From contig OZ037766.1 in assembly GCA_964035545.1 (NCBI GenBank), positions 13,443,222 to 13,507,221 on the forward strand: a DNA stretch of 64,000 nucleotides, in the 5' to 3' direction. The notes under the pieces are model-generated. The model was not told the DNA's origin, made no database searches, and saw nothing but the letters and a program-made list of their open reading frames with translations. Shown piece after piece: positions 34,527 to 54,855 of the stretch (the first letter of the stretch is position 1; every line of letters starts with the position of its first letter). Position numbers and translations under genes: made by a program. Source of the DNA: Bugula neritina (Eukaryota > Bryozoa > Gymnolaemata > Cheilostomatida > Bugulidae).

Positions 34527-37500
34527 ATGTGGATTATCCAAGTCGTAGCCTGTGTTTCTGTTGTCCTACTTTCATATACTGAAGCTCAAAGTGAGTAAAC
34601 ACATAACTGTATTAGACAGGAATATTTTTCATTTTCAATAGCCCTAAATTTCTCTTTGGTCACAATCATTTTCAAAAGTTATTAAAGTTTTACTGTGAAA
34701 CAAGCCCTATGTTTTGTCTATAGAAGACCTTTTATTTTATTAATTTTTTTGGGAAATAAAGCATGCATAGGCTGTTGTTTTAAAAGAAGACAATGCTGAA
34801 CTTTTGTGTATATAATATAATATCTTAAATTATATGACATCTTGTCTCGTAACTGCATTGCATTTGTAATTACCTTTGTTACACATTTTGACATTGAGGG
34901 TGTTAAATTTGTGCATACAACTCCAAATTGACTATAATCCAACTAAAAAGCCACATATTCCACAAAGGGATGCACAATTACACACTCAAACTGTTTCATT
35001 TATGGCATCTACTTGGCTCGATATATGTATCGGTGATTTCTTTTCCACTTTTAGCTGATATGTTTAAACTTTTTTGCTCAACTAGCTGTAGTGTTCTAAT
35101 TTTTATTTTGTACTCAGAAAATCTATTCACGTCTAATTCGAAGACCTTACGAAAAATTTTGTAATGAATTTTGATTTATTTTTGGGGCAAATTCGTGCGT
35201 TTTATTGAAGCAGAACTTTTTTGAGCAAGTAATGATGAAATATTGCTGAGCTGTAGAGTAGGTAACAGTAGAGGTGTAGAGGGTATTTTTAAAACTTTGG
35301 TAAATCACTCACTGCTACGTGGAGGAGGAGGAGGGGGCGTAAAGCTCCATCCTTTGTTTCGAGATCTGTTTATTATTAAAAGACGACTATGCCTAGCTTT
35401 TATTAAAAATCAAATTCAAAGCACTCTTACAAACTAAAGTATTCTATTCAAGATTGGGCTATTGTTAGGATACTTGTGGAATTTGCTACATTGTTCTATT
35501 GATATGTTCCGGCCATGATTAAACTTTTCATTTGCTTGCTTTTTCTTCACATTTTTTGTAATTGAAGTAAATAACATGCCGGTAGTAGTAGGGTGTGAAC
35601 CCTACAGTATCTGCATTGGGTTTTAGCAGGGTTGGTATAGGAGTCCCCCCCCCCCTATACTGCTAAAGGAATTGCTGCTATAAAAGTTCAAACTTGTAAC
35701 TTGTTTTTTTCTCATTAAATAATATGTAGCTAAAATAATAGAATTATGTAATTGTGTGCAATTATATTTTATTGTATTATATAAAAGAATTTTCCGCTGT
35801 TCTTAAATACACCTTATACATTATAGTAGAAGCAAATCGGTTTAAGAAATGTCACTGAAACATCCTATTCTCTTAATGTAATGCTCTTTTAGGTTCTACC
35901 TGGACAATACCTCCTGGTACAGAGTTCATAGGTAACAACCTGACCACGAGAGACTTCCCTTCGTATGAAACTGGTGTGAAAGAGACCAACACAACATACG
36001 TGGATTTCAGATCCAGATTAAGAACAGGATTACTTACGGAGTTTCAGTATTATGTACAAATAGATAATCCAATCACCTTTGGGGATGTCTATGTTAGGTT
36101 TCAGGTGTGGCGAGTAGTGAGTACTAGTTATGTAGGTGGGACCCCTACTAACTATACTGTTGCCCTGGAGTATGAACAGCGAGAGCTGCTTGGAAGGGAT
36201 CCAGGAGTTTACACTGTAAGATATTTTAAATTCTACTTGTATTCAGCTGTGAAAAGAAGAGTAGAAACTTGCCATATCAACATATTACTTTATTAACTCA
36301 GTTTTGCTTGTGAATTAGTCAATGGTGTTAATTTTTTCATACCTTCTACAGGAAACTAGGTTTTAAAGTATGACTTGGGCTATCCTGATGTATTGTAGAA
36401 TTATTAGAGATACAAGTATTTCAACTTTATCATTCTGTGACATCTTAAATGCAGCCTTGGAAAACTTGGGAAAATTGATGGTTTATTGCAGATAATGAGC
36501 TATTATATGCCGTACTCGTATAGACTGTTCCACTATAAATTCTACCCAAGTATATATTTCATGACCTATTTAGCTGAAAATTTACAATAGCAATTTCTAT
36601 TTTCATCTTCTTTTAAAGAGAAAATTATTTTTTATGCACATAATTAAAAGAACCTTTTTTTCTCAGCTCCTATTCTCTGATTATTATAATATAAAATTTA
36701 AAGACCCACCAGTTGTTGCAGTTTTAATTTCTCAGTTGCCTGCAATATCCTTGCTGCATGTTTAGGTTTCACAATACATTGTGTGTTTTAGGTGGATATT
36801 GCTGACAGGCCCCTAGTTGAAGCCGGCTGGGTTTTGGGATTTGCTGTTGAGGCTCCAACCCTACCATTTTCATTCAACTATTACACCAGTACAGATGACA
36901 CTGAGGAGGCTGTGATAGACTTGAACCTGACACCTGGAACCTACACTGTCGGTTCTGAACAACAAGCTTTCGTTTTATATAGCGAAAGAGTGCAATACTC
37001 CTATGGTGCAGTCATTGATCCATGTAAGTAATAATGTCCGAAGAGTATGTTACTGTAATGCTTACCTGCATGTATCCTTACACTGTTTAAGCACCAAGGC
37101 TAGAATACAAGTTCTCAGACTAACCCTGTAGAGAAAAATGACAGCTAACTTTAATCAGTTCAAGCAGCCATTTCCATGCACAGTTTTGACATATTATTGT
37201 AATGATTTTTACATAGGCACACTAAGCCGTTTCTGTTTTGATACTAGTTAGTGCAAAACTATGTTCATTTTCAGTTTTAGTCAAACTTGTACAGATTTTT
37301 GTTCAAATAATAATTTATACAAAAAAGTTAGTGTTTTGTTGCTTACTTTAAAATGCAAGGAAACTTTTAAAGCATCTAAATCTGATGTTAATCTTTATCC
37401 AACAAGTTAGTAAGCCTTAGTCATTATCTGCTTGATTAGAACCTTAGTCTAAAAAATTGGGTCTTATCAAATACAGTGCTGTTCACATTGAGATGCTGCG

Positions 37501-54855: not shown

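Follow-up and report, generated by a model that had tools for sequence, protein, structure and literature searches.

The window analysed here is a stretch of 64,000 nucleotides from the bryozoan Bugula neritina. On its forward strand, the region from the start codon at position 34527 to the end of the stop codon at position 54855, at 13,477,748-13,498,076 of chromosome 2, contains a predicted gene of 20 coding exons, which encodes a protein of 4494 residues. The model was obtained with a dynamic program that was given rough exon bounds, tested all AG acceptors and GT donors up to 45 bases to either side of them and kept only in-phase paths. As these bounds had been set by eye from the open frames, the rebuild is not blind, and all 19 introns are of the GT-AG class, the only class that the program permitted. 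The first-pass annotation had described one gene with 20 exons that closes in phase at 4494 residues, and the rebuilt model gives exactly the same numbers. All exon junctions are of phase 1, except for the junction between exons 2 and 3, which is of phase 0. The encoded protein consists of a signal peptide, an unmatched domain of ~188 residues (exons 2 and 3), a collagen region (exons 4 to 14 and the start of exon 15), EGF repeats within a Cys-rich part (exons 15 to 19), and a single membrane span followed by a short tail (exon 20). An acceptor-like sequence just upstream of exon 1 (tttaccttag, read by eye) suggests that a 5' UTR exon precedes it. The exons are listed below; all rest on the splice model, and further evidence is given in brackets.

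34527..34590, + strand: exon 1, signal peptide with the initiator Met, aa 1-21 (peak of hydropathy at aa 1)
35893..36215, + strand: exon 2, first part of the N-terminal domain, unmatched (relatives P0121-P0131; Pfam without match)
36792..37023, + strand: exon 3, second part of the N-terminal domain, ending ...GAVIDP
38059..38295, + strand: exon 4, link into the collagen with 4 triplets, one extra Gly and the start of the long helix
38494..41346, + strand: exon 5, collagen, 2853 nt, 317 x 9 (Pfam Collagen, 467 bits)
41563..42309, + strand: exon 6, collagen (length a multiple of 9 nt)
42523..42720, + strand: exon 7, collagen (length a multiple of 9 nt)
43068..43544, + strand: exon 8, collagen (length a multiple of 9 nt)
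43987..45660, + strand: exon 9, collagen, Thr-rich core (Pfam Collagen, 285 bits)
45774..47429, + strand: exon 10, collagen, Thr-rich core (length a multiple of 9 nt)
47640..47891, + strand: exon 11, collagen (length a multiple of 9 nt)
48048..49118, + strand: exon 12, collagen (length a multiple of 9 nt)
49294..50742, + strand: exon 13, collagen with more Lys and less Thr in Y (triplet composition)
50892..51809, + strand: exon 14, collagen nearest the membrane, KGD/KGE-type pairs abundant (Pfam Collagen, 165 bits)
51980..52150, + strand: exon 15, final Gly-X-Y triplets together with EGF repeat 1 (EGF_CA and FXa_inhibition above cut-off)
52394..52615, + strand: exon 16, Cys/Tyr-rich module and EGF repeat 2 (Pfam; C-terminal alignment)
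53171..53461, + strand: exon 17, EGF repeat 3 and Cys-rich insert (Pfam; genome matches)
53838..54116, + strand: exon 18, second Cys/Tyr-rich module and EGF repeat 4 (Pfam; genome matches)
54310..54453, + strand: exon 19, fifth EGF-type start (DIDEC), atypical repeat and juxtamembrane linker (hydropathy)
54629..54855, + strand: exon 20, transmembrane span (~aa 4435-4456), KRKRR stop-transfer, ~37-residue tail and stop (hydropathy)

Collagen helix and integrity of the repeat

The collagen region covers residues 210-4062 and contains 1284 Gly-X-Y triplets with one extra Gly at residue 222. Four triplets precede this residue and 1280 perfect consecutive triplets follow it (residues 223-4062), which agrees with the roughly 1284 nearly uninterrupted triplets counted previously; 200 residue shuffles of the collagen stretch gave runs of at most 12 triplets. 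Each of the ten wholly collagenous exons (exons 5-14) has a length in nt that is divisible by 9. Pfam Collagen (PF01391) matched each of the three collagen exons tested out of these ten far above the cut-off of 27.2 bits, with 467, 285 and 165 bits for exons 5, 9 and 14, respectively, and the Gly-X-Y domain can thus be assigned to the collagen superfamily. When the genome was searched with Pfam Collagen and 150 of 1551 candidates were scored, none of the matches listed lay in the window gene. A collagen exon gave no match to phage sequences, and its matches in the PDB were mostly generic collagens. The rise of a collagen triple helix is 0.286 nm per residue, from which we compute a rod of ~1.1 micrometres. 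Provided that the helix is fully folded, the triplet count therefore bears out the earlier description of a giant collagen with a helix near 1.1 micrometres.

A helix of this length might be produced by the expansion or collapse of tandem repeats during assembly, and the collagen sequence is indeed repetitive, with TRF giving 75 overlapping rows at positions 38000-52000. However, the units match each other at 62-95%, exceeding 85% in only 8 of the 75 rows, the reading frame is nowhere broken across the gene, and the assembly is PacBio-based with a consensus quality of 53.7, according to the assembly details cited from PMC11480708. The peptide motif GNTGAT occurs 88 times in 66 codon spellings, and this wide variation of synonymous codons would be expected for a protein under conservation and not for a DNA repeat of recent origin. 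Based on the divergence of the repeat units, the open frame and the varied codon spellings, we reject a repeat artefact for the collagen region and regard it as highly improbable, while the helix length of the window gene may vary by a few triplets. A pseudogene is likewise unsupported, as the frame is open through all 20 exons.

Two paralogues and the relatives of the N-terminal domain

Searches of the genome with the two ends of the protein led to two further loci on chromosome 1, which we refer to as paralogues A and B. Four of the six matches to the N-domain are located at these loci and the other two in the window gene itself; for the C-terminal part, five of 14 matches fall on the A and B loci, five on the window gene and four elsewhere. 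Paralogue A (30179302-30193777, + strand) is predicted to have 14 exons and to encode 3564 residues, and paralogue B (30252844-30230005, - strand) 14 exons and 3524 residues. In each of the two models, one acceptor was picked by hand over the choice of the program, and exon 1 of paralogue B, predicted 3.8 kb upstream, is the least certain part of its model. Both share the block order of the window gene, namely a signal peptide, a two-exon N-domain, collagen, EGF repeats and a span, as well as its junction phases (1, 0 and 1 for the first three junctions and 1 for all later ones). Compared with the window gene, A and B are 41% and 40% identical in the N-domain and 47% and 45% identical in the C-terminal part, respectively. 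The helices of the paralogues contain 4 (A) and 14 (B) breaks in ~990 triplets, compared to one break in 1284 triplets in the window gene. Judged by these predicted models, the window gene is not a one-off but one of three paralogous membrane collagens in Bugula neritina. Genes A (L021-L022) and B (L024-L026) lie tail to tail, ~36 kb apart, and have collagen exons of near-equal length (2079, 513, 585, 369 and 1665 nt), where the 585 nt of B rest on the hand-picked acceptor. Due to these nearly equal exon lengths, one might speculate that A and B could form mixed trimers.

The paralogues also bear on the question of whether two or three genes, coding for the N-domain, the collagen and the EGF/membrane part, have been wrongly joined in our model. 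The joins between the N-domain and the collagen and between the EGF repeats and the span do rest on predicted splices. The collagen-to-EGF junction, on the other hand, lies without an intron within exon 15 (51980-52150; EGF_CA 32.3 bits, cut-off 27), and since Gly-X-Y triplets and an EGF repeat are encoded together in this exon, the collagen and EGF parts are not separate genes. The same junction is found inside a single exon in A and in B, and at all three loci the N-domain lies upstream and the EGF repeats and span lie downstream, in the same order and phase. The shared exon 15 and the identical layout at the A and B loci led us to reject a fusion of separate genes, to which we attach hardly any probability. 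Separate genes for the collagen and the EGF/transmembrane parts, the outcome against which the first-pass annotation had itself warned, are thereby excluded at the DNA level for the collagen and EGF parts.

No significant match to the N-terminal domain was obtained in Pfam, NCBIfam or the PDB (the lowest E value in the PDB, 0.038, was regarded as a chance match). The domain had been described as beta-rich: in a structure model of exon 2 alone, the better part indeed consists of beta strands, but with a mean pLDDT of 57 this is weak support for the domain as a whole. A profile built from the N-domains of the three paralogues found 12 proteins with E values between 3e-49 and 2e-18 among 6270 candidates of ~119-378 residues; in our protein searches, the candidates were between 0.55 and 1.75 times as long as the query. 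These relatives are short, exon-sized frames of 122-186 residues with the source labels lgn, ena or jgi, which presumably stem from assemblies of public reads and from metagenomes. Eleven of them span exon 2 and one spans exon 3. A tree of the eleven together with the three Bugula copies, based on one exon of ~105 residues (14 rows, 13 of them different), contains a window-like group of 6 rows (support 100/100), an A-like group of 4 rows that is weakly supported (64/87), and a B-like group of 4 rows (95/93). As the exon-2 relatives fall into three groups, one per paralogue, the three gene copies seem to have arisen before the sampled species diverged. The N-domain of paralogue A matched none of 1375 candidates of ~561-1785 residues at E <= 1, and of 93 stretches in viral contigs that matched a pattern, none was confirmed as a relative.

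With the C-terminal region of paralogue A, 1167 of 4357 candidates were found at E 0.001, which are dominated by EGF-repeat proteins; Pfam Collagen is present in none of the best 120 of these 1167 matches. Among the matches listed for either end, for which the searches covered ~119-378 and ~561-1785 residues with the N-domain and up to ~6240 residues with the C-terminal region, there is no named protein with the same architecture, and no annelid is named. Within the lengths searched, the domain order had rightly been called unrecognised, as no named family was matched in protein, Pfam and literature searches: in the literature retrieved on sponge or type I membrane collagens the same architecture was not found described, and the papers listed on Bugula and collagen included none on its collagen genes. 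The first-pass annotation had steered towards sponges and other early-branching animals for orthologues, but the host is a bryozoan and hence a lophotrochozoan.

Membrane anchor and helix chemistry

The C-terminus gives Pfam matches above the cut-off to EGF_CA (in four places), FXa_inhibition, cEGF and EGF_3. Among solved structures, the closest chains are EGF pairs from thrombomodulin, NELL2 and LDL receptors. The COLFI propeptide of fibrillar collagens was not found among the Pfam matches of this region, which comprise EGF-type families and a sub-threshold DUF, and neither was a SEA domain in the window gene. The span of the window protein has a mean hydropathy of 2.69 over 19 residues and is followed by KRKRR; the sole other peak above 1.6 is the signal peptide. 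Paralogues A and B each show one peak above 1.6 over 19 residues, namely the span near the C-terminus. Their predicted signal peptides stay below this threshold and reach 2.55 and 2.21, respectively, in shorter windows. Lys and Arg residues number 5 after versus 0 before the span in the window protein, 2 versus 0 in A and 5 versus 1 in B. This charge balance, combined with a signal peptide and a C-terminal span, fits a protein with its N-terminus outside the cell, and we predict a type I orientation for the window protein. The same orientation had been assigned to it previously, and the signal peptide at the start, the span at ~aa 4435-4456 after the collagen and the basic residues behind it all agree with that assignment. 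The tails of the three proteins comprise ~37 (window), ~16 (A) and ~14 (B) residues and have a D-[LI]-[DE]-S motif in common.

MACIT collagens are much smaller than the window protein. Members of this group (collagens XIII, XXIII, XXV and XVII and COL-99 of C. elegans) are type II proteins with interrupted helices, as far as they are described in the cited parts of PMC4678570 and PMC7848082, and the contrast drawn earlier with the type II membrane collagens of vertebrates holds for the MACITs described there. The window protein resembles them in its predicted collagenous ectodomain, single-pass anchor and short cytoplasmic part, but differs in its C-terminal anchor, EGF repeats and unmatched N-domain. 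By sequence, the span comes after the collagen in the window gene, A and B, rather than before it, and in place of several interrupted COL domains the window protein has a single break of one residue in 1284 triplets. As neither the type II orientation nor the interrupted helix is present, the window protein is not a MACIT.

A parallel to the helix itself is provided by the cuticle collagens of annelids (Riftia, Alvinella, Nereis), which likewise combine a very long triple helix with globular parts, and the window protein shares the very long uninterrupted helix of this type. To our knowledge, however, annelid cuticle collagens have no C-terminal EGF stalk and membrane anchor, as predicted for the window protein. 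The window protein does not hold the record in length, as predicted giant collagen-like proteins of annelids reach up to 8859 residues in Alvinella; in the sections of PMC12403961 cited here, misassembly of these is considered hard to exclude, yet transcriptomes give similar lengths.

In the case of Riftia, the likeness extends to the chemistry of the helix. In the window gene, Thr occupies 675 of 1280 Y positions (53%) and Pro 17 (1%), and Pro accounts for 8.8% of the X positions. Work by Mann et al. in 1996 is said to have demonstrated that glycosylated Thr stabilises the cuticle collagen of Riftia in place of 4-hydroxyproline. The same finding is cited in the relevant passages of PMC6953826 and PMC11766948, and the dominance of Thr instead of hydroxyproline in Y is a feature that the window protein shares with Riftia. 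Based on this precedent, the Y-Thr residues of the window helix are probably O-glycosylated. In paralogues A and B, counted across perfect runs of >=6 triplets, the Y position carries 31.7 and 32.8% Pro and 8.4 and 5.1% Thr, respectively, and the X position 0.2 and 1.7% Pro. A Thr-rich probe assembled from the motifs of the window gene itself gave 162 matches in the genome, the best 25 of which all lie in this gene and the next in paralogue A, which shows only that no other locus is as close. Pro is common at X in vertebrate fibrillar collagens, whereas it is nearly restricted to Y in A and B (32% versus 0.2-1.7% in X).

Thr is not evenly distributed along the window helix. It peaks in the middle of the rod, with 50-73 residues in every 100 triplets from triplet 200 to triplet 1099, and drops towards the membrane to 22 in the next 100 triplets and 9 in the last 80. 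Over these same two stretches, Lys in Y rises to 26 and 24, and KGD/KGE-type pairs are at their commonest (12 and 16).

Transmembrane mucins with EGF repeats (MUC4/MUC17 type) consist of a signal peptide, a giant Thr-rich ectodomain, EGF repeats, a C-terminal span and a short tail, and part of this family contains a SEA domain. The window protein displays the same order of roles, including EGF repeats followed by one C-terminal span. Unlike in mucins, there is no SEA match, and the Thr-rich part is a Gly-X-Y collagen instead of a Pro/Thr/Ser mucin domain, with Gly at every third residue and Pro at ~9% of X and 1% of Y positions. Calcium-binding-type EGF repeats are also shared with fibrillins and other EGF-repeat proteins, and the best 120 C-terminal matches listed all carry EGF domains. 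This likeness is limited to the EGF repeats (26-39% identity), and none of the 120 has a Pfam collagen domain.

Proposed structure and function

We propose, with moderate confidence, that the window gene encodes a type I membrane collagen, which displays a stiff and probably glycosylated rod on the epithelium, where it would serve as a coat or as a tether to the cuticle. The single C-terminal span and the presence of the same blocks and phases in all three paralogues support a membrane collagen. The anchor, together with a stalk of calcium-binding-type EGF repeats, would hold three chains at the membrane, and the register of these chains could be set in the membrane-proximal end of the helix, which is rich in Lys-Asp/Glu and a plausible nucleus. 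From this charged nucleus, the helix would zip from the C- to the N-terminus. Fibrillar collagens fold in the same direction, which is the reverse of what is expected for a type II anchor. The resulting stiff rod of ~1.1 micrometres would project from the cell and bear three N-domains at its tip, and its proline-poor helix might be stabilised by O-glycosylated Thr in Y, of which there are up to 675 per chain. The likeliest task of such a protein would be to form an epithelial surface coat or, by means of the tip domain, to tether the epithelium to the cuticle above it; the placement in an epithelium is a guess.

The strongest rival to a retained anchor is shedding into the cuticle. The anchor could be temporary, with a cut in the EGF or juxtamembrane region releasing a giant collagen into a secreted cuticle, as in annelids, and the cited part of PMC7848082 describes both tethered and shed forms of the vertebrate membrane (MACIT) collagens. 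We consider this possible, if somewhat doubtful: all three paralogues retain the span and a short tail with the D-[LI]-[DE]-S motif, which is consistent with a putative anchor that stays in place rather than being cleaved. The conservation of this motif and of the tip domain, whose exon-2 half is conserved across the three groups of relatives, could also speak for a bridge between cells or between cell and matrix, or for a receptor, in which the tip binds a partner, the rod acts as a spacer and the tail signals. This appears rather improbable to us, as no known ligand-binding domain is recognised apart from the EGF repeats and the tails are just ~14-37 residues long.

Returning to the membrane-anchored rod, we tentatively suggest that it might be regarded as a collagen mucin, whose triple helix takes the place of the glycosylated brush found in transmembrane mucins. 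Such a protein would be a stiff, micrometre-long and sugar-coated rod with a binding tip, and the members of the bryozoan family would differ in how the helix is stabilised, by Pro in Y in A and B and by Thr in Y in the window gene. In the membrane collagens described in the literature considered here, which are type II, the anchor comes first and the helix grows outward, whereas the anchor comes last in the three-copy family described here. If true, membrane-bound collagen would have arisen separately here and would face the reverse folding problem. The family also provides a natural experiment, as its three members have related ends and a similar gene layout but differ in Y between ~32% Pro (A and B) and 53% Thr (window gene). 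This contrast makes the replacement of hydroxyproline by Thr glycosylation testable within one protein family.

Several other loci were observed in passing. Chromosome 4 contains two adjoining intronless collagen frames (L027-L028, 17046243-17056640, and L029-L030, 17069853-17078834) of 3466 and 2994 residues with 1141 and 982 triplets, respectively. They start near a CPAGP motif, end in GATGPIRI... and look like giant secreted collagens encoded in very large exons. On the reverse strand of chromosome 5 (L033, ~7024406-7028155), an open frame of 1250 residues contains Lys-rich collagen repeats, with 411 triplets in runs of >=8 and a longest run of 209. SEFIR domains occur in IL-17 receptor-type signalling proteins, and a match to this domain lies in the window at 27504-28337 on the forward strand (25.2 bits, cut-off 23). 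The reverse strand of the window carries a putative adenylyl cyclase N-terminal region at 12829-13635, with a weak Pfam match below the cut-off (26.5 of 30.9 bits), and the exons of a transporter at ~56072-63153, presumably resembling an organic ion transporter of the SLC22 type, for which two of four pieces tested match Pfam Sugar_tr, one of them above the cut-off.
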